NCBI GenBank assembly: GCA_009869945.1
Contig: WIXG01000010.1
Location: forward strand, 186,001 to 250,000
Source: Mesaphorura yosii
Lineage: Eukaryota; Arthropoda; Collembola; Poduromorpha; Tullbergiidae
Direction of reading: 5' to 3'
DNA: 64,000 nt
Under the pieces are notes generated by a model. That model made no database searches. It saw only the letters and a list, made by a program, of their open reading frames with translations, and was not told the DNA's origin. The position numbers and the translations under genes are program-made. Positions 33,901 to 53,977 of this stretch are shown piece by piece (the first letter of the stretch is position 1; every line of letters begins with the position of its first letter).

Positions 33901-36900
33901 AAAGAAATGCAGATGTTCGCGCATTCAGCGGCGGCAGCGAGAAATGAGTAAGTGGAAAGCACGAGTCACAGCTTTGAAATATGAAACCACATTTATTATC
34001 ATATTTATTTATGTTGCGCTGCGCGCTCTACGTTGCAAAAGAGTAGAAAAAGCCGACTAGACTGCGACTGTGAATACCGGCATTTGAATTTGTTGCCTGG
34101 CAGGCTGTGATGCGAAGCGGATCACGAGTAAATGGAGAAGAGAAGCTGTAGACCGAGACTTTATTAGATATTCGTTTTTCGCTTTAGGATGTTGTTTTTC
34201 CATCGCAAGATCCGAAAGACAAGAAAACGACTCAATTTTTCTCATTTTCTTGTCATTTAGCTCGTAACGACATTTTAATTTATTACATTACTTAGGCCGG
34301 TTATGCAAACCTAATTTGACAACTGTTACCTACAAATGCAAACACTCTCCGTCTTCTTATCTTGGAGTTGGAGTCTAAAGTAAGGCGAAGCAGAATCGAA
34401 ATGCCGTCTCCTTCGCTATTTAAATTAGAATTTGCAATTTGCCAGTTCGTAAACTGCAAATTGCCGTTGCTATCTTCGTGTCGCTTTGTTTCGTCTTGCA
34501 AAAATGTTCCATTCCCCGCTCCTCGTTCATGCGCAAACATTCCAGTCGTGCTTCACACGCCTGCAATGAGATTATAGCTTGCTGCTGTCGCCGACACCGA
34601 AGCCGTTAAAAATTCAGACTTTTACGACTTCTTGTGATACGAGGAGCGGAATGCGCACTAAATTAGATATGACATTACAAATTTATGACGAATTCTACTC
34701 CCATCGTATTAGCCGGGTTGTATGAGCTGCTGCATGAGTTTTATGATGATGACATGTCGTAGTCGCAATAAAAGTGATCATAAAAATTGTTTCTTTACGA
34801 TTATTTATACATCAAAGTTCACCGTTCGCTTCCCGCTAATGTGTTTCCCCATAATTCATTTATCGGCCCATACTTCACTGCACATCTTTCGATCTTTCGT
34901 TGGCTTCTTTTGTTTGTCGGGCTTGAGTTTGCTGCTGGTACGAAGTCTTAAACTAAGTCTTGGTCCCGGTAGGCGACGGAATGAAGATCAGGAGAAAAGA
35001 AGAGTAACTAAGGCTTCGGTAGGATTTAATCTTCTTTTTCTTCACAGTCTCTTAAATATTTTATTTCATGTTTACTGCTTTCACGACGTGCACTCTCATC
35101 ACGTCATGAAATTCTGCTGCATGTTCCCAACCTGCCTCCTGAGTCGTATTAGCTGGGCTGGCAGACGGACATCTCACATACGTCTACTGACTTTCTATTT
35201 CATATTTTTTGTAAATACAAAATATGAATAGTAGAGAAAGTCCCGGCCGAGTGAAATGAAAGTGAACACTGAGAAAGTGAATCAAATGTAATCTTCCTCT
35301 TGTGCCCGTGCTGTACGAGAACGTAAGTCCTACAAGATGTAGTCTGGGTAAAAATACCTGTGCTAATATTTTTACTAATACGAGCATTTTTCTATGCGAT
35401 ATGAAAGTAGTACAAAGTAGAAGTAGAGGTAATCTAGCATCCTTTGTTGTAGAAAATGAAAACTAAATAAGATTACCGAGCGGGTTTTGATGGAGTACCG
35501 AAATTGAGAGTATTTTCAATGTGGCTTATATTTTCGAGATGGAAAATGGCAATGGCAAAGTGGTTCCGTGCGGGATTTATTTCCATACGTCCAGGTAATC
35601 CAATTCATTACTCAGAGTACGTTGTGAAATTTAGAGTTAGGAATGGAAGCGTACCGAATAGAACAAGAAAGAATAATATTTTAGTATGCGAATATACAGA
35701 AACAAACATGTCCATTATTATGAAAGCCATGTGGTCGTACCTCGGAGCTATTTGGTTGTAATCGCATTATTTCCGTCAACTCTCGTGTTCACAGTTAATG
35801 ACGCTTGATTAACAGTGAGAACAAGTGCATGTTGATTATGTGACTGGCTGTTTATTATTAACCATGCACTTTTTCAATACACACCCAAATTACACTCTGA
35901 AGGACGTGAATTTTTAAAACCCGAGGTGTGTAATTATTACAGCGATAATTCTTGATGATTTCTTTGATATTAATGACTGCTTTCGCGTCCCACATAATTG
36001 TTAATTCAATGCTCGATCTCTGTGCGCAGCATTAGAATTTATTCACTGTTTGCGATTTTTGGTGTGAAGAAAGCGAAGCCTAAGCCAGTAATATTGCATT
36101 GTTAGAGCATCGAACGCGACGCATTCAAACGAGATGATGTAGAAAATCGAGATACGATTTCCTCCGCTATTTCGCTATTCATTCCACGATCCATCGATTC
36201 CTATTCGTATTCGCCTGACTGCAGTTGAGTTGAAAATGATTGAAGGTTTTCATTTCCTTCATGTCAGTTCTATGCTGCTCATTCGCTTTCATTCATCTTC
36301 GTCAATTCGGAATCGCCCTGACTCAGAAGTCAGAATTCATGATTTCTCGCTTTAGACTCATTCGAACTCACAGCGCAGCACTGCTATTAAAAACAGCATC
36401 GGACGGCCATTGTGTATTTATTTTGCCGAAAAGTTTGCGAATTAGCGAATTTGTTCTTCCGAGCCTCGCCTGGTGTCTTTTTGTTATTCAAATCATCCAA
36501 AATATTTATGCACTATCACATTTCGGGAACTGAAATAGGTTTTGCGCTGCGCCAAAGTTTATTTACTCTACCACTTCACCTTCGATGCGCTAAAATTACT
36601 CATGGATTTATTCCAATAAAAGTCTGTACTCTCCGAAATACCGAGCTATTTGACATTGTTTAGACTCGTCATGCGTCCGCTCTGCTTGAACTCTTCGTAA
36701 AATCTCGATGATAATTCCACCAACACCACCGGAAACTGAGGGAAACTAAACCATGACTTTTATTTTGTCACAGGCTTGCGAAAAGTGTACCCGTACTACT
36801 TCACTTTCACAACATTCACAAAAGGACGATGGGTCGGTGAAAAGATACTGGACGTCTTTGCCCGTGAATTTCGTGCGCATCCCGTCGAAGAATACGTAAG

Positions 36901-39900
36901 TCGAGTTTCTACAAGATTTCGTGATTACGTCTCATGCCTGCGATATTGCATGTTTTGATTTTATTTCTTCATTGTGCTGGTTTTAGTGGCATGTTTTTTC
37001 GCATTTGACGTAAATTAATGTTTAAAATAGAAATTATGAAGTTATATAAATGAGGGCGGCAGCGAACATAATGAAATATTAAAAATTGAATTGAGCATTT
37101 TTATGGCCGCACTTTTGCTACGCTTTACTCCCCGCTTTTTATGACTTCTCCGTAGTTTCTGGCCATTTTATCTTTAATGCTTCGACCAAGTTTATTGCTT
37201 TCGTATTCAATAAAATTTTTAGTATGTGTTTTATTCTTTTCCCCATTATTCTCGTAAAGTAGGAAATGTATCATCCCCACAGTTTATTACATTGTTCTTT
37301 TGCTTTCTCGTCTTGGCTTGTTTAGTATTCTTATTTCATCATCACCAAGTTTTAAAAACTTTGATACTAAGCACATGATTCATTTTTGTTATTATTGCCT
37401 TTATGACACTCAACATGATCCCAATTCATGTACGTACGGGTACTCAATGTTTTCTTTAATGTGTTTTCTCTCCGCAGGAACGTTGCATCAAAAGTGGAAC
37501 ATTGACTGTCAACTACACAAAAGTCGACACGGACTATCGACTCAAACATAATGATTTACTAGCTAATATTGTTCATAGGTAAATTACGTACACGGTTACC
37601 ATTCTAATAGCCTCTTGCGTGTGTGAGTAACTGAGCTTTCAATTTCAACTTTGATTACTAATTCCGAATTCTGCTTTCATGCGGTATGGGTTCAAATAAT
37701 GAAGTGATTAATTCAAGTCCTTCAGTTTGCACTCGCACCCATTTGATGTTTGTTGTATCGAGAGAAGCAAACACCACTCGAATTCTCATTTAACGTCACA
37801 CCAGTAAATTCAGTATGGTGTGAATGAATTGGAGCTTTCCACTTCAAGCCTTTGAGCACTTTTATCCACCTACGCTCAATTTTCTCACTTCTGACTACTT
37901 TGTCGTTATCAATTCCTTCTAGCCTTAGAAATTGTCGTTGGTAGTATGGTATTTAACCTGTAATATAATTAACAACCACCTTTTGTTGACTAAACGTATG
38001 TGCAGGCACGAAGTACCCGTGACCTCTGACGCAATTGAAATTGTACACCAAGACGAAGACTTGGTGGTGGTCAATAAAGCGGCGTCTATACCCGTAAGTA
38101 CACCTTTTACTCTTACAATCCATAGAATTCTGTAGCAATTTAGCAACAATGTCCTTTACCAATGTATCAACATCATGCTCGCCATGTGTATTGTGAAATT
38201 GTGCCGTAATTCCGTACTGCGTTGAACAAAAGGCGACAAAACTCTGTCCATTCCAAGCCTTGCCTTGCCATGATTAGCTTCAATTGAACAAAGCTTAATC
38301 AAATCCTGACACGTCACGTCAATCATAAAACCTTACAGAAGTGCATTTAATTGACTTGCAGAATGCAAATTCACAAGGCTTCTAATTGCGAAGCAAGGCA
38401 AAGTGCATAGTTCCTAGTTAACACATTTGCACGTTTTGGAACTTGAATTTTGGAAAACTTGTGTGCTGTTTGGTGATTCCGGTTTATCCAATGAAGATGT
38501 GGATGGGTCGAGTCTGAGTGATATGATCAATGTTCGGGCCAGTGGAACTTTGACTTGTTGAATTTTGAATTTCTATACTTCAAAAATTAGTGAAGAGTGA
38601 AACTTTTGAATTAACAAGTACTTTAAACACTAGGTTCTGAAATTAAATTCTCAATCTCCTCAAGTGTTTACGAATTTCTTAATTATGCGAATGTAAACAG
38701 GCATGAGACTCCGGTACTTTCCAATGACATTGTAATTCTCCATCTCGATGACGAGCTGGTTGTGCTGGACAAGCCAGGTTCCATTCCGGTACATACATAA
38801 TTACGTTATTTTGTTTGCCAAGCCTTTTATTAGTCTATTGTTTTAGTTTGAAGAATTTGAAGCTATTTCGCACTCAATAGCACCTAATTTCATATTATTT
38901 AATGAGTTTGACATTCTAGCGACAAGTAACAAGACTTAAATTATGATGAAAGGGCATTAATTAATCATTTCACTGGAGACTTGTTCTGGTGGGAGAGAAA
39001 GGCCAAAAGGTCACAACTGTGTCTAGGAACTGGGACACGGTTATCCTGGTTAGGTGCCTTTTATGTTCGTAACGACGTGAACGAAGTTGAAATCGACTCA
39101 ACTTCACTGGATATTTTGACTGTGAGACTTAATTGCGTTATGCTCTGCCTTTTCCATCCTCTTTTCACCACTTTAAATTAAACCACATGAGCTTGGCTGT
39201 TGAAAATAGAAGTTAACGGTCGGAGTTTTTATGTGACGTGGCGAATTGGAATTCGACTTCCCTTGTTTTGAGATAGTAAACTTTATTCATGCGTACAGTC
39301 ACAGCCAAAGTCAAGTCTAAAGCGACGAGATTTAGATTTAAACTTTATTGTTCAAGGCTATTTATAAATTGAGTATGCCTTCTCCCGTACGATAAACGTA
39401 GCATAAATGGGTTAGACACTCTTATTTGTCTTCCTCGTTGCTCTTAGTCGGAAATTTATCACTCCCTTAAACCCAAACTCGATACAATTTGTTACTTTTT
39501 ATTTGGCAGCGTTTACTTCATTATTTTGAGGCGTCGTTCAGCTTTTAACATTTAAAATGAATTTTGTTTTGTTCTTTTACGTATTTTGGATTTCCACCAG
39601 TTTTCGGGCACTGACAAGGACTAAATTCACTAAATGGTGACGTGCGTCATAAATTAGCTTCTGAAACTCACGTGTCGTTGTCCTGCCTCAAAAATTTAAG
39701 TGCCTCGTTTCTGGCTGTTAATTTGAATTTGTACCGAAAGCAGAAAGAATGTTGGACTCTTAGCCTGATACTTACTGGATTGGACGAAGAAGCCTTGCAT
39801 TATTAATAGGCCTTGTCAAATCTGGTTTTAATTAATGGAAGGCTGACTCCTTTCGCTCGTTATTCATTTCACGACATTAATGTCTCGATGAGAGAAGATA

Positions 39901-42900
39901 TCGCGTTTGGAAGAACCAAGTTAGAAATTGAGGGGGCTCAATATTTTCCGGGCTTTTGCAGCCACAAAATGTCAACATATTTACGAATCTATGACATGTC
40001 CAGTGGGTCCTTATATCTTGGTGTGTTGGGCGCTGAAATGGGCCCTCGAGCGCGAGCAAGCCTTCGTGACTAACTGACTGCGACCGTGGCCGTGTCACGT
40101 GCATAATACATGATGGAGGTTGGCTTGCTTTTAGGGAGTAATTAAATTGTGACATAACTTTTCTGGTCGGTCCATGACATGTCACCGAAACGAAATGTAT
40201 TTTACTTTTACCTTCAAGCGACGATTCAGGCCAGGCTAATAACTGTAAATAGGCAAAAATTTCGTCTCGCTTTGAGTGTCTTTCTTATTAGCCACTTTCT
40301 CTGTTCTCGTCTTGGTTGCCGTTGTCAAGTTACGCTCACGCAGCTACGCTGAAGCTGAACGACGACGACATGGACGTAGACATGTTGTCAATGAGAATTT
40401 TCATAACCTCTTCAGCTCGGCTAGGCTTCATAATAAATTCAGGAGCAAGTAAGCGAGCAATGAGCCACACGGCACACATGTGAACATGACGCATTACGCC
40501 AGACAGGTTGATTATGACTTCAAAAGGATTCTCAGTCTGGCTAACACAATGAATGACGAGAATCTTGGAATGATGAAACGGCGGAACTCCGAGGGCAGAA
40601 TCGCAGTAAGAAAGCTGGCGAAGAAAGTACCAGAGGAAAAAGTAGATTTGTGATATGAAATTAACAGAAGCAGAATTATTCGAATTCTTATTATAAATTG
40701 TATATTATTAAAAACGAGATGAAAGAAGGCGGTCAAGGCATGTCTTGGAGGAAGTGAAAGCGCGCTGCTATGCGTCTGCTTTGATGCTGAGACGAATTAT
40801 AAATGGTACAAATATTTCATGGCAAACGGCAGGGATCTTAGGAAGTGTCTTTGTTCTTTCTACGTCTAGGATCGATCGTAGCTCGGGCGGCTGGTCATTT
40901 TACCCTCGTCCTGTTCACTGTTCATTATCCTTCACCTGAAACTGAAACTGATTTACGTGACGTGTTTTGATGTGACGTGTGTCTCTGTTTAGGTGCACCC
41001 CTGCGGTCGGTACCGACACAACACTGTCGTCTTTATTCTCGCCAAGGAACACCAGCTGAAAAATTTGCGAACAATCCATCGTCTTGATCGCCTGACATCG
41101 GGACTCCTTCTATTTGGTCGAAGTCCAAAGAAAGCACGCGAAATGGAGCAGCAGATAAGAAATCGCCTCGTCTCCAAAGAGTACGTGTGCCGCGTGGAAG
41201 GCGAGTTTCCAGAGTAAGTCTTTCTTATTTTTCGACTCATTTTGTGTGATATCAAGTATGGTCAATTTTGCAATGTAGTGTAGTGTTTTCTGCAGCTGCA
41301 GCACGTAGGCTTTCATTTTTTTTTATAAATCATGCCCACGTCGGGCGCACTTCATAATTTCTGTCACTGTCAGTGTCTTTGCTTTCGCGTTTTCCTTTCG
41401 TCTTCCTTTCACCTACAGCTTCAAGTATTTTTCAAAAGATACGCTCACACATATCCAGCTCGAACTCATCGGCAGTGGCAGTTGCTTGCCCTCCTGTTGC
41501 GTTTGAATGATTATGAGCTGATAATGATGACATGTTTCCTTGCACGAGCTCGTAGCATGGCGCATGGAGTTTGAGGGCCTTTGTTTTGTGCGAGCAAGCT
41601 GTATACATAATTCATAGACAGCTCGCTCGGTTGTTGGTCTGAAGAGCATTGAGCATTGCAAGAACAAGACTGCAGGACAGAAAGAATTCTTCAGACTAGA
41701 CTAGACTCGAGGCTGGTTTTTGATGTATTTCCAAACACTATCATCGCCTTGAGCTTGTCTTTTAACTGCTTTCTCTGTACCGTGGCATAGCATGTGTGTT
41801 GGTGAGATGATTGTAATTTCTCTCGCATTCATTTTACATCCACACTCCACGCTGCCACGCATTTAGGCCCGGTTTCTTTCACTGCTTTCTTTTTCGATGC
41901 TCTACATTCTTTTCAAACAAAGGCTGCGGCGGTGGCACAACAAACAAAAGATGAAAAATCAATTACTCATTCATGCCGTGTACGAATTCTCTTTATGTTC
42001 ACTGCACTACAAAACTACAATCTACGACAATGTGAGCGAGTTGTGAATTGGATGAGATTTGTATTGAGGTATTCTTCTGCATTCTGTAGTTTCTGCTCGT
42101 GTCCCGGAAGGAAGCTTTTGTTTCCTCGCCGCTTGCTCCTCTCATTGTGCTTAATTCCTTCCACAGCCACGCGATGAGTCAGCGTGGCGGCGTGGATCCA
42201 CCGGTCTATTTTCGTGGCCTCTCGTCATGAATCCCATTGTGTTTTGTTTTGATTGCAGGGAAGAGATTGAATGCTCAGAGCCTATTGAAGTCGTGAGCTA
42301 CAAAATTGGCGTGTGCAAAGTATCAAAGGACGGGAAAGACTGCCGCACAACATTTAAAAAGTTGAGCTATAATGGAAAAACAAGCGTTGTGCTCGCTCGG
42401 CCGAGAACAGGCAGAATGCATCAAATCCGTGTTCATCTTCAATATCTCGGTAAGTCTCTGCATGCAACAAAAGCTTTGGTAACCAGTTCCTACTGATTCA
42501 TCTCGACGATCCCGAACAAATTTTAATCCGTGTCTCATTCGCGGAATGAGGGACTTAACTTGATGCTTGATTTATCGATAGTGCAGAGATAAAGATTACT
42601 GCGTACTTTCTCCATTATTACTGTCCATGTTCATAAATCCTTCTTGCTTCCGTATGAATGTTAGAGATACGAAGAAGCACCAATGAGATCCTTTTAGGCT
42701 TTCCTGAATGATACATTTGTTTTAGCTCTGTGAAAGCCTATCAACTCGATTCAAATGAAATTCTGATTTATTTTGTGGAGGCTTATCAGACTCATATCCA
42801 GCTCTTGCTCTTTGCATTTCGTGTGTTGAATAAAGTCTAAGCTCTTGTGAAAATTCTACCCTACTCTAATCTTCATTTCTATCCACATATGCGCTTGCAA

Positions 42901-44777
42901 TTTAATTGAGTAAGATACGAGTGAAAGTTCGGGTTTTGTTTCAATTTAAGTAATCCTCAGCGCGTGTTCTAGTTTCGAGTATTTAATATTAAATTCTTGT
43001 GAAGACAAGATTAAGGGCAAAGTCAGAACGGTTCCCAGAACCTTCGATATCGAGCGGATTTTATTTCTCCGCAAATTCTACCAGGGTCAGAAGTTCTGAA
43101 AAATATGTATACTGCTTGAACAGGTTATCCGATTGTGAATGATCCGCTCTACAATCACCCGGTGTTTGGACCGGAGAAAGGCAAAGGAGGCGTACTCGGG
43201 AAGACGGATGAAGAGCTCATTGCTGAACTCATTTCAATTCACAATGCAGAGAACTGGCTGGGCATTGAAGAGGAAGGCGGGGGCGGGGGCGGAAATGATA
43301 TTTTTGGGCCGCCACTTCCAGCAATTCCAATTCCAGCATCCTGCCCTGCAGAGATTAATTCACATGATAACAGCCCGAAGGAACATGTTGCATTAACTAA
43401 TAGCATTGATAAGAAGCAAGGGATCACAGCAGCAATGTGCAATGGAGACTTGCACCACGGCATCAAAAAAGAAGAGCTCGAATCAACTGAGAACAGCAAA
43501 GGCGCCGCGGCAGGCGAAGGCAAAGCGAATTATGCAAACTCGACCGGAGAAAGCGTGCCCGTCGTAGTCGGAAACAAAGTAACTTTTGAAGTTGGGACTC
43601 AAACTTCCGACGAAGAATCTCAACAACTCTGCACCTCGTCCTCGTCCTGCAGCAGTTCAGCCTCGAAGTATATTCAGGCTGGGTCATCTTCTGCTCCCAG
43701 CACAAGTTCGGCCGCATCGACATCGAGCACTGCGACCACAGCATCAACAAGTCCCAGCAGTCCAAATATGATGTCGGCTTGCTCTCCTTCGTCGAGCATT
43801 GCGTCGATCGGTGCTGGAGAAAGTCTTTCGTTCAGATCCGAGTTGATGACATATGACCCACACTGCTATGAATGCAAAGTGCGGTACCGTGACCCGAAAC
43901 CGAAGGATCTGGTCATGTATTTGCACGCACTCACCTACCAAGTAAGTTTAATCCCTCGACGAGAACGAGGCAATATCGTAGGCAGGACCATGAAACCTCG
44001 TACCGAATCTCGGATAAATTAAAATGAAGTGACAGGCACTTTACTTTAGATTCAGCTTCCGTGCTCGGTGACGGTTTCGCATCTCGATTCTTGCGTGCCG
44101 TAGCCGTAACGAAAGTTTGCGAAAAACGTCGGCAAAATGCTTAACAAACTATTGTGAGTAAAATACCCGTTGCAATAATTAATTAGAACAAGACCCGGTT
44201 AGAATTCTTTGGTAGTTTTCCTGGCTTATTGCCACCACGCCATAGTCGGAATTTTTCTTCTGTCTGTATCGCAGATTGCAGATCCAAATCTCAAACGTCA
44301 AATATGGCCTGAGACTAATGCGCAACAAGCACGTCTGTCTCGAGCACCATGTCTTCATTTTTCTTCTTGCGTCCCGTGCCATAACATAACTTTCAATCTC
44401 CGAGTTTCGAGATGGCAGATAGCAACAGGAGCTCTGATGAGAATGCATTATCATTTGGGACGGAGTTTAGTTTCGGTTTCGGTTCCACTCTCCGTAACTA
44501 AATGAGAACTATTCGGTTTCTCGTTTCGAGTTTGTATCTCCGTGATGCGTAAAGAGTTCAGAGTTGCAAAGTTTGCGTCTTGCCTTGTCTGTCGTCTTCG
44601 AAAAGTTTGTGCACTAGCACTATCACGGAGTTAATATCTTCGAAATGCCGAAATCACTACGAGCATGTTTTCTAATTGGATGTGTGCTCTTCTTATCCAC
44701 AGGGACCAGGCTGGTGCTTCAAGACAAGAATGCCCGCATGGGCATCAGAAGACTGGGTCGAGCCTGCAGATGACTAA
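6552..44777 (+). CDS. RPUSD2: RNA pseudouridine synthase, RPUSD2/RluA-2 type (10 coding exons, one mutually exclusive pair)
   Basis: Predicted to isomerise uridine to pseudouridine in RNA. Coding exons: 6552-6959, 18398-18490, 29646-29733, 36774-36895, 37478-37578, then 38006-38093 or 38701-38788, 40993-41213, 42259-42449, 43124-43941, 44703-44777. They total 2205 nt, 734 aa, with every junction in phase and GT-AG. Domains in order: a low-complexity Ala/His head (1-136), the RPUSD2-type entry region with ETSYY (about 190), an S4-like part (about 219-265), RluA motif I from exon 6 (271-300), the catalytic HRLDRLTSG with Asp332, RTGRMHQIRVHL (motif III), a long Ser/Thr-rich insert, and the conserved tail ending GPGW...MPAWA. 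It is longer than the human protein, from memory about 545 aa, because of the head and the insert. Target RNA is unknown. The first exon is the least certain. Poly(A) signal is at 44955. Confidence 0.93.
15931..15947. repeat. Short ATT microsatellite
   Basis: About five ATT units in a row within intron 1 of RPUSD2, followed by ordinary sequence. Confidence 0.7.
17621..17636. repeat. Short GCA microsatellite
   Basis: Roughly five GCA units followed directly by GACAGACAG, inside intron 1 of RPUSD2. One of very few true simple repeats in the window. Confidence 0.7.
18398..18490 (+). CDS. RPUSD2: RPUSD2 coding exon 2
   Basis: 93 nt, phase 0 to 0, residues 137-167. Flanked by TATGTAG and AAG/GTTAGT. 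Lys/Arg/Glu-rich peptide with NKRKSAPEDPE and no known fold, resembling the basic N-terminal extension seen before the conserved core in RPUSD2 proteins. Confidence 0.82.
18491..29645 (+). other. RPUSD2 intron 2, 11.2 kb
   Basis: No gene or mobile-element coding sequence recognised. Open frames here (up to about 138 aa near 18995) lack family features and have no partner exons. Confidence 0.6.
29646..29733 (+). CDS. RPUSD2: RPUSD2 coding exon 3
   Basis: 88 nt, phase 0 to 1, residues 168-196. Contains KRPGFTDDRY and ETSYY, the start of the conserved RPUSD2 region. Acceptor ttcacag; donor G/GTAAGT. Confidence 0.95.
29734..36773 (+). other. RPUSD2 intron 3, 7.0 kb
   Basis: No coding exon supported. 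A hydrophobic 169-aa open frame at 34722-35231 has no recognisable motif. An AT-rich imperfect hairpin lies at 35189-35242. Confidence 0.6.
35189..35242. repeat. Imperfect inverted repeat (hairpin) in intron 3
   Basis: Outer arms gactttct and agaaagtc, and inner arms ttcatatttt and aaaatatgaa, pair around a short loop with a few unpaired bases between the inner and outer stems. The RNA would fold into a hairpin of about 54 nt. Confidence 0.6.
36774..36895 (+). CDS. RPUSD2: RPUSD2 coding exon 4
   Basis: 122 nt, phase 1 to 0, residues 197-237. Contains RKVYPYYFTFTTF and KGRWVGEKILDVF, the N-terminal signature of RPUSD2-like enzymes and the start of an S4-like segment. Donor TAC/GTAAGT. Confidence 0.97.
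37478..37578 (+). CDS. RPUSD2: RPUSD2 coding exon 5
   Basis: 101 nt, phase 0 to 2, residues 238-270. Contains RCIKSGTLTVNYTKVDTDY, the strand-turn part of the S4-like segment. It ends AG/GTAAAT, so the next exon must supply the third base of an Arg codon. Both versions of exon 6 start with G and do so. Confidence 0.96.
38006..38093 (+). CDS. RPUSD2: RPUSD2 coding exon 6a (alternative to 6b)
   Basis: 88 nt, phase 2 to 0, residues 271-300 in the A form. Acceptor tatgtgcag, donor CCC/GTAAGT. Encodes RHEVPV...DEDLVVVNKAASIP, RluA motif I. It has Ala-Ala after the motif Lys (K295) where the family usually has Pro followed by a small residue. It is homologous to 6b (17 of 30 residues identical) and has the same length and phases. 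Confidence 0.93.
38701..38788 (+). CDS. RPUSD2: RPUSD2 coding exon 6b (alternative to 6a)
   Basis: 88 nt, phase 2 to 0. Acceptor gtaaacag, donor CCG/GTACAT. Encodes RHETPV...DDELVVLDKPGSIP, a canonical RluA motif I. Either copy joins in frame to exons 5 and 7. If 6a and 6b are both spliced in, 6b is read as GCA TGA, an immediate stop. If both are skipped, exon 7 shifts frame and reaches TGA after about 20 codons. Confidence 0.93.
38789..40992 (+). other. RPUSD2 intron before exon 7, 2.2 kb
   Basis: No third copy of exon 6 and no other coding sequence seen. The introns 36896-37477, 37579-38005, 38094-38700, 41214-42258, 42450-43123 and 43942-44702 also show no coding content. Confidence 0.6.
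40993..41213 (+). CDS. RPUSD2: RPUSD2 coding exon 7 (catalytic motif)
   Basis: 221 nt, phase 0 to 2, residues 301-373. Starts VHPCGRYRHNT, completing motif I, and carries HRLDRLTSGLLLFG, RluA motif II. Asp332 is the expected nucleophile. KEYVCRVEGEFP follows. Donor GA/GTAAGT. Confidence 0.98.
42259..42449 (+). CDS. RPUSD2: RPUSD2 coding exon 8
   Basis: 191 nt, phase 2 to 1, residues 374-437. Contains SYKIGVCKVSKDGKDC and RPRTGRMHQIRVHLQYLG, the conserved Arg/His motif III at the active site. Acceptor gattgcag, donor G/GTAAGT. Confidence 0.98.
43124..43941 (+). CDS. RPUSD2: RPUSD2 coding exon 9 (core end plus disordered insert)
   Basis: 818 nt, phase 1 to 0, residues 438-710. Begins GYPIVNDPLYNHPVFGP (end of the catalytic fold), continues through a Gly/Ser/Thr-rich low-complexity stretch of about 200 residues, and ends with CYECKVRYRDPKPKDLVMY, the conserved C-terminal element of RPUSD2. 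Donor CAA/GTAAGT. Confidence 0.96.
44703..44777 (+). CDS. RPUSD2: RPUSD2 coding exon 10
   Basis: 75 nt including the TAA stop, residues 711-734. GPGWCFKTRMPAWASEDW matches the family's C terminus. Acceptor cttatccacag. Confidence 0.95.
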   Translation, partial: GPGWCFKTRMPAWASEDWVEPADD

Positions 44778-51811: not shown

Positions 51812-52507
51812 TATCGATTCATACTAGCGTGCTGAAGCTCCCTGCTTGAATTTTGACAAGATGGTGAGATAGACAATGTGCAAAGTCTAGAATTTTGTGT
51901 AAAACGTCGTGGACAGGTGCAAGACCCAATTTTGGGCTGCTGCTGTGAACTCGTGCCCAGCAGAAGACAAATGACGAGTGACTTCATTTGATGGTGGCGA
52001 GTTTGGAGGGCCCGGCCTGTGCTGATGCAGTGCCTGAAATTCCCCTTAGTAACTACTACTAGTGGACATGAAGATGATCACGAAGATCCTGACATGGGAC
52101 GGGGGATACACGTCTCCAAGGCGGCGGTGCCGAGGAGCTCGATCCAAGAACCCATCTAGAAATGATTCATCTCCTGGTCGAATGTGTGGGAATTTGAGAC
52201 ATGCGTATTTTTTCATAGCAGGCCGTGGTTTGTGGTTCTTTCAGTTCAGATTCGCAGAGGACGAGAATTCGAATGAGCTCCTGGCAAAATCAACAAAAGA
52301 AATACGCACAGGTCATTTGTTAAACTCGGGAATTTTCGATAAACTCCATTAGTCTCTCATCGTACTGTCACAGTCTGTCCTTCTGATTCTCCACCAGTGA
52401 TAAATTTTGACTGATTTGCTACCTATTCATAATTTCGCTTATGCATAAGATTCTTAATCGAGTAATTTTTGCGCGTGGTGATCTGATCTGACCATAAAAG
52501 CGTACAA
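51812..52507. promoter_or_regulatory. Divergent promoter region (1059-aa gene / PIH1D1)
   Basis: The 696 bases between two divergent start codons must contain both promoters. No TATA box or initiator stands out. The open frame at 52062-52352 on the plus strand shows no family features and is not called. Confidence 0.5.
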
Positions 52508-53888
52508 ATGGACAACTTCCTCGACGTCGACGAATCCAAGTTTCATAGCAAGTTTCTCATTAATGGGCTCTCGCTGGACGCTGCTGGTAGCGGAGGTGGT
52601 GAAGAAGAAAGTGAGGTAGGCGCCCGACTGGGAGAATATTTAATACTAGAAATTACATTTAACATTTGTTCGCAGGGTCTCGGGTGGCTCAAACCACGAA
52701 GTCAGGCAGACACAATTCCAATCATCACGCCAAGTCAAAAGAAGGAAGCTTCACAATGCAAATTTATCATCCCAAAGCCTGGTAGGGAAGAATTCGAGAA
52801 GGAATCCTACACAAATCCCTGTTTGAAACTGTTCGAACTTCATTTTAATCTTCATTTTCAGGAAGTTGTGTAAAAACGAAAGATACAAGTACTGGCAAGA
52901 AGTTCTTTATTAACTTCTGCCACTCTGATGATGTCCCAGAGCCACAGCTTTACTACTCGGACGAAGAATTACGACAGATACTAACTTCGGGCTCAGATAA
53001 TGAAATTGACGACATCAGAATTCCAATCAGTATTGGAGAGAAGAGTGTCGTAACAGATTCAGGTACCTTGGACTCGATTTGAGTACTGATATCATTTCCA
53101 TCTATTAATTTCTTTCTAAGTGGATTTTATTTATCTCAGGCGGTTCAGCTGGTTTCGCCGTCGATGTAATTATGAATGCTTCATTTTACACTCGCAAATT
53201 CCTTACCTCGGATATTCATCGAGAGTTTTTCATCGTAGTTGCAATTGAGGGTGTTGAGGCCAAGCATAAAGTTACACTCGATCGTGATTATAAAGTTCTG
53301 CGGAACAAGAAGGTGATGGGAAAGCTACAACCACAGTTTGTCAGATCAAAGGCTGGGATACTTGAAGTTCATGAGAGAGGTGATTCGACGAAGGCGGCGG
53401 CAGGCAGTGGTGCTAGTCCATTCCCGAAGAAACTACCATCCACTACGAGCAACTCTGTATTACTTGGTGATAGTACTGCAATGGCAATGGAGGTCGACGA
53501 GACCGATGAGAAGCCCTTGCTCGAGCCAGTGACAACAAAACGACTTGTGCAAGAAGTGATCGCAACGAAGGATTCTCACCTCAACTGTGTCGTCACACAG
53601 CATTCTGAGGAACTGGCCACGGCTGTCGTCAATATCCCAAACCTGGTAAGGTGCACGGTTAATTTAACTGTTTAAACTGCTAAAGGAACACTTTATATCA
53701 TTTTCTTGCAGCGCAACCCAAAGAAACTCTCCTTCACAATTGGAGCTGACAGACTCATAGTCGAAAGTCCAGTTGGTTCGCTTGATATCTTCTTACCGTT
53801 GGACTTTCATCAGGAAAAGTGTCGTGCTGAATATGATCCTGCCACAGGAATTCTCTCTCTTCATTTACCACTTGTAGTTAAGCCGTAG
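52508..53888 (+). CDS. PIH1D1: PIH1 domain-containing protein 1 (R2TP subunit)
   Basis: Adaptor of the R2TP co-chaperone (RUVBL1/2, RPAP3, HSP90), which helps assemble PIKK kinases, box C/D snoRNPs and RNA polymerases. Exons 52508-52615, 52676-52781, 52862-53062, 53140-53645, 53712-53888: 1098 nt, 365 aa, all GT-AG and in phase. The PIH1-N domain starts at PKPGSCVKTKD...GKKFFINFCHS; the lysines in VKTK and TGKK correspond to those that bind phosphorylated DSDD/E clients in the human protein. RIPISIGE and DVIMNASFYTRKFLTSDIHREF follow. The C-terminal CS-like domain (about 305-365) includes KKLSFTIGADRLIVESP and ends HLPLVVKP. At 365 aa it is longer than the human protein, from memory about 290 aa, mainly because of a Ser/Thr-rich linker of about 80 residues between the two domains. 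Confidence 0.94.
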
Positions 53889-53977
53889 TCAGTCAACCAT
53901 TGAAATTTTAGACGCTGCCCGCGCCGCGCGTGAATTTGTACACTTGTAATTAGAAGTTTCACGATAATACGCACATG

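Follow-up and report, generated by a model that had tools for sequence, protein, structure and literature searches.

Two homologous 88-nt exons in an RluA-family pseudouridine synthase gene of Mesaphorura yosii suggest mutually exclusive splicing

Can a single gene for an RNA-modifying enzyme offer a choice between two forms of the stretch that runs into its synthase domain? This question is raised by a locus of the collembolan Mesaphorura yosii, which lies in a stretch of 64,000 nt from contig WIXG01000010.1 (the window; 42% GC) of an assembly of 93.0 Mb in 1127 contigs. The telomere repeat TTAGG has 26 forward and 14 reverse matches, many of which overlap, and its reversed control has 0, in keeping with an arthropod; a search with COX1 yielded no match. 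At this locus, two neighboring exons of equal length encode similar versions of the same protein segment, and either one can join the common exons on its two sides. Judged from the genomic sequence, the arrangement most probably represents an old tandem exon duplication that is spliced mutually exclusively and is policed by the reading frame and by nonsense-mediated decay (NMD); we place the probability of this reading at about 0.85.

The gene and its two alternative exons

The synthase gene spans positions 36774-44777 on the + strand of the window, and its placed coding exons, all of which have AG and GT borders, comprise six common and two alternative exons. The first exon that could be located (36774-36895; 122 nt, LRKVYPYYF...VEEY) is called exon 4, a name that follows the earlier numbering of exons 5 to 7. 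Exon 5, the common upstream exon (37478-37578; 101 nt), ends with two bases of a codon. It is followed by the alternative exons 6a (38006-38093; 88 nt, HEVPVTSDAIEIVHQDEDLVVVNKAASIP, donor gtaagt) and 6b (38701-38788; 88 nt, HETPVLSNDIVILHLDDELVVLDKPGSIP, donor gtacat), and then by the common exon 7 (40993-41213; 221 nt), which carries HRLDRLTSG. Exons 8 (42259-42449; 191 nt) and 9 (43124-43941; 818 nt) lie downstream. The last coding exon, exon 10 (44703-44777; GPGWCFKTRMPAWASEDWVEPADD and a stop codon), was placed by eye and has phase 0, as exon 9 needs; it was left out of the spliced translations used for the frame checks.

Motif scans for N-terminal exons 5' of 36774 returned 1, 4, and 8 candidates, which were unconvincing by eye. 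A possible first coding exon, belonging either to the synthase gene or to another gene, runs from 6552 to ~6959 on the + strand and encodes Ala/His/Gln-rich runs (MQAPWLFFTQGIPTAQQHH...); this candidate has no Pfam match and is separated from exon 4 by ~30 kb. On the 3' side of the synthase gene there is a PIH1-domain gene (~52500-53890, + strand), with a PF08190 match in the ORF at 53109-53675. Upstream of the window, the + strand (C10:176001-186000) carries consecutive ORFs that resemble virilizer/VIRMA, a component of the m6A writer complex.

Exons 6a and 6b share their length and phase, with AG before and GT after each of them. Either exon restores the frame from exon 5 into exon 7 at 40993, and the spliced translations 4-5-6a-7-8-9 and 4-5-6b-7-8-9 are both open along their entire length. 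Since 88 nt do not make up a whole number of codons, the frame shifts when both exons are included or both are omitted, and an early stop follows: the joining 5-6a-6b yields ...SIPA and then a stop as the second 6b codon, and the joining 5-7, in which both are skipped, yields ...FSPRNTS followed by a stop 21 residues into exon 7. A preliminary description of this stretch had claimed two exons of exactly 88 nt and equal phase, and these are found exactly where it placed them. Its further claims, that either exon fits the frame between 5 and 7, that double inclusion stops at the second 6b codon, and that skipping both gives a stop after about 20 codons, are likewise confirmed by the spliced translations.

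By its profile matches and motifs, the gene is an RluA-family synthase. Both isoforms pass the curated cut-offs of PF00849 and TIGR00005, which bears out the earlier identification as an RNA pseudouridine synthase; of the relatives with solved structures, bacterial RluC and RluA match best; and IHRLDRLTSG is present in exon 7, where the Asp of HRLD is presumably the catalytic Asp. The gene is provisionally classed as RPUSD2-type by the flanking motifs LRKVYPYYF, HPCGRYRHNT, and the C-terminal PAWA, which are RPUSD2 words. The swapped exon corresponds to residues 75-103 of a 263-residue query in which PF00849 starts at residue 92 or 93, so that the exon lies across the N-terminal boundary of this domain; it presumably carries motif I, whereas HRLD is in exon 7. 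This refines the earlier placement of the exon inside the catalytic core.

When the 93 Mb assembly was searched with the 6a isoform, by a method that scores only the best candidates, 11 matches were listed. They comprise the gene's own exons, two sites in a single, presumably RPUSD4-like gene on contig C475, and two weak matches with E values of 0.3 and 2. Among these 11 there was no second RPUSD2-type gene, no intronless copy or retrocopy, and no further copy of the swapped segment beyond 6a, 6b, and the distant RluA-family places. Pattern matches numbered 4 in the viral collection, with no relative among them, and 53 in the prokaryote genome collection, one of which is a distant homologue. 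Three homologues from prokaryote genomes (L021, L022, and L023) match the RPUSD2-type protein at ~120 bits over nearly the whole query, the next match scoring 85 bits; these three may mark a transfer or a bacterial source of RPUSD2.

Homology and constraint

Exons 6a and 6b are identical at 50 of 88 nucleotides and, over full codons, at 16 of 29 residues; the 17 of 30 residues of the preliminary description is recovered when the junction Arg is counted. This likeness is not due to chance. The two strands of the window contain 410 segments of 88 nt between AG and GT, 99 of which are open in the matching phase. Aligned to 6a, exon 6b has a BLOSUM62 score of 82, and the runner-up among the 99 open segments has a score of 4. 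When 2209 ORF fragments were compared with one another under a low-complexity filter, the pair is the best non-overlapping self-match (E 6e-9), followed by the pair's own antisense (2.5e-5) and then by a match at 0.001.

Of the 38 differences between the two exons, 8 fall at first, 6 at second, and 24 at third codon positions, a third-position excess with a binomial p of 0.00016. The NG86 method returns a dN of 0.29 and no finite dS, i.e., dS is saturated. Neutral evolution was simulated at five branch lengths, with 6a as a fixed ancestor (a simplification), and at each length 0 of 20000 runs reproduced the pair, success being defined as an open frame together with 16/29 or more identities and 38 or more nt differences. 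Because of the third-position bias and the outcome of these simulations, both copies appear to have been kept as coding sequence; there are signs of purifying selection in 6a as well as in 6b, and neither exon looks dead.

The family models give a similar picture. TIGR00005 scores the 6a isoform at 240.3 bits and the 6b isoform at 236.4 (cut-off 192.7), PF00849 scores them at 115.6 and 115.3 (cut-off 26.8), and of the solved relatives some are matched better by 6a and others by 6b. Motif I was aligned with 32 homologues, 31 prokaryotic and one from the organism's own genome, after 4 of 36 loci had been dropped. Lys98 of motif I is present in both exons and in 32/32 of these homologues. The residue after it, Pro in 24/32, is Pro in 6b and Ala in 6a, and homologue L016 shares Lys-Ala with 6a. 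Position 89 (Glu in 28/32) is Gln in 6a and Leu in 6b, and position 97 (Asn in 25/32) is Asn in 6a and Asp in 6b. Thus, each exon strays from the family consensus somewhere. The conserved residues of motif I are called non-catalytic in one paper [PMC7718762].

The early stops in both wrong products would also suit an unproductive-splicing switch, in which there is one main exon and inclusion of both exons or of neither leads deliberately to NMD, thereby setting the level of the enzyme. However, nothing obliges a poison exon to stay similar as coding sequence, and here both 6a and 6b are constrained as protein and the two isoforms score alike on the family models. We consider such a switch unlikely as the explanation of the pair, and it could coexist with a choice between isoforms. 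It is decidedly improbable that one of the two exons is a relic, or has died recently, and never enters the mRNA. The donor of 6b looks weaker by eye (gtacat vs gtaagt) and the motif I Pro is replaced in 6a, but both copies are open, have AG/GT borders at exactly 88 nt, and show the third-position bias, and the pair was reproduced by no neutral simulation; the constraint would nevertheless be compatible with a very recent death of one copy. An assembly or haplotype artefact, in which two alleles have been set in tandem, is hardly credible: nothing was found in its favor, the exons are 43% divergent in nucleotides, and introns 5 and 6 share only one short direct match at the settings used (16 nt, 81%, at 37967 and 38609). 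A tandem duplication with mutually exclusive logic, as the preliminary description proposed, is supported by the equal length, phase, and splice-site type of the exons and by their homology, constraint, and frame incompatibility.

How one exon could be chosen

Under mutually exclusive splicing, an old tandem duplication would have affected one exon of the only RPUSD2-type gene among the assembly matches listed, so that the linker, the first strand, and motif I, which lead into the synthase domain, would now exist in two forms. Each pre-mRNA would use exactly one of 6a and 6b. Products with both exons or neither would meet an early stop that precedes several exon junctions, and would consequently be removed by NMD, while the choice of splice site would set the ratio of isoforms by cell type or stage.

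Several means of enforcing exclusivity, whose shares among human clusters are given in one paper [PMC5740500], can be compared with the locus. Frame and NMD are consistent with it in that both wrong products meet early stops and would be expected to decay; by our analysis, this route punishes splicing errors and does not prevent them. In human, 377 clusters (60%) of mutually exclusive exons (MXEs) include exons whose length is not divisible by three, and for 83 (22%) of these 377 frame-breaking clusters there are reads joining both exons [PMC5740500]. A steric block is associated in the same text with an exon spacing under 50 bp [PMC5740500]; because the intron between 6a and 6b, at 607 nt, is far above this spacing, such a block would not apply here. 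Nor is there a U2/U12 mismatch among the donors gtaaat, gtaagt, and gtacat, none of which is U12-like. A scan for splice-regulator motifs, made without a control, gave nothing striking.

Docking and selector sequences were sought with the common dock placed in intron 7, intron 5, or intron 6, and here 53, 42, and 50 of 60 shuffles, respectively, were equal or better. Whole-intron duplex energies, computed by a method that forced global hybrids, were matched by 20/40 shuffles for introns 5 and 7, by 34/40 for introns 6 and 7, and by 1/40 for introns 5 and 6. The last signal is unsupported, because 108/200 shuffles were as good for this pair when single local helices were considered. The same local test gave 4/200 for introns 6 and 7 and 8/200 for introns 5 and 7, the three tests being uncorrected.

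In the local helix between introns 6 and 7, an arm of 27 nt in intron 6 (38299-38325, + strand) is 81% complementary to a partner arm in intron 7 (40949-40975, + strand), which lies 18-44 nt 5' of exon 7; the predicted energy is -28.6 kcal/mol. This pairing would place 6b in a loop, and the helix between introns 5 and 7 would loop out both 6a and 6b. Because the three tests were made without correction, the helix formed by 38299-38325 and 40949-40975 is a candidate regulator as a lead only; the branch point would be expected in the same place as its arm in intron 7. Words similar to TGTGACGTG recur in intron 7 (39225-39241 and 40952-40980), where two of them form a tandem immediately 5' of the exon 7 acceptor; ACACGTCACGTCAA, to which they are complementary, lies in intron 6 (38309-38322). 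In MXE clusters generally, the outer introns tend to pair with the inner ones, as reported in one study [PMC6071210].

Known exon pairs and the meaning of the swap

Adjacent homologous exons of similar length and the same phase occur likewise in Mhc, Dscam, cacophony, OGDH (4a/4b), and U2AF1 (3/Ab). Combined inclusion in known MXE sets is often frame-breaking, as it is for 6a and 6b [PMC5740500], and the cacophony pair keeps 16/39 residues [PMC9741552], compared with 16/29 here. The known sets belong to ion channel, muscle, adhesion, metabolic, and splicing proteins, whereas the present candidate pair belongs to a stand-alone RNA-modifying enzyme. The preliminary description was aware of no such exons in RPUSD2-type enzymes, and in the main texts of openly licensed papers we likewise found no report of MXEs in the RPUSD2/RluA/pseudouridine synthase family. 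"Pseudouridine" and the RluA and RPUSD names tried are absent from the main texts of PMC3228551, PMC3303723, PMC9013439, PMC5740500, and PMC9741552; supplements or subscription papers may possibly list such exons. MXEs are a known kind of gene switch, and what appears to be new here is the gene family that carries them.

Drosophila has two RPUSD2 homologues of the same family that differ in expression: RluA-1 is present in sensory neurons and in part of the brain cells, whereas RluA-2 is ubiquitous [PMC7718762]. In the fly, however, the versions are separate genes, while here one gene contains two versions of one exon. Human RPUSD2, also of this family, forms pseudouridine at positions 31-32 of tRNAs, both cytosolic and mitochondrial, and at position 34 of cytosolic tRNA [PMC12716993]; within the openly licensed literature, no mention of a duplicated exon in it was found.

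The invariant Lys is retained in both isoforms, which should fold into active enzymes. We infer that they differ in function, probably in how they bind RNA or in the substrates they prefer, and not in the chemistry they perform. A more specific proposal, which is tentative, is that by swapping motif I and the linker one gene supplies two RPUSD2 enzymes of differing substrate preference, so that a single splicing choice sets tissue- or stage-specific pseudouridine in tRNA (perhaps in mRNA); the locus would then be an exon-level counterpart of fly RluA-1 and RluA-2. The usual view of RNA-modifying enzymes assigns to each gene a single enzyme with a single set of sites. If the choice between 6a and 6b is regulated, the pattern of pseudouridine would be tunable by splicing, through the segment leading into the catalytic domain, and the locus would offer, with fly RluA-1 and RluA-2, a clean comparison of exon duplication and gene duplication as routes to specialized enzymes.
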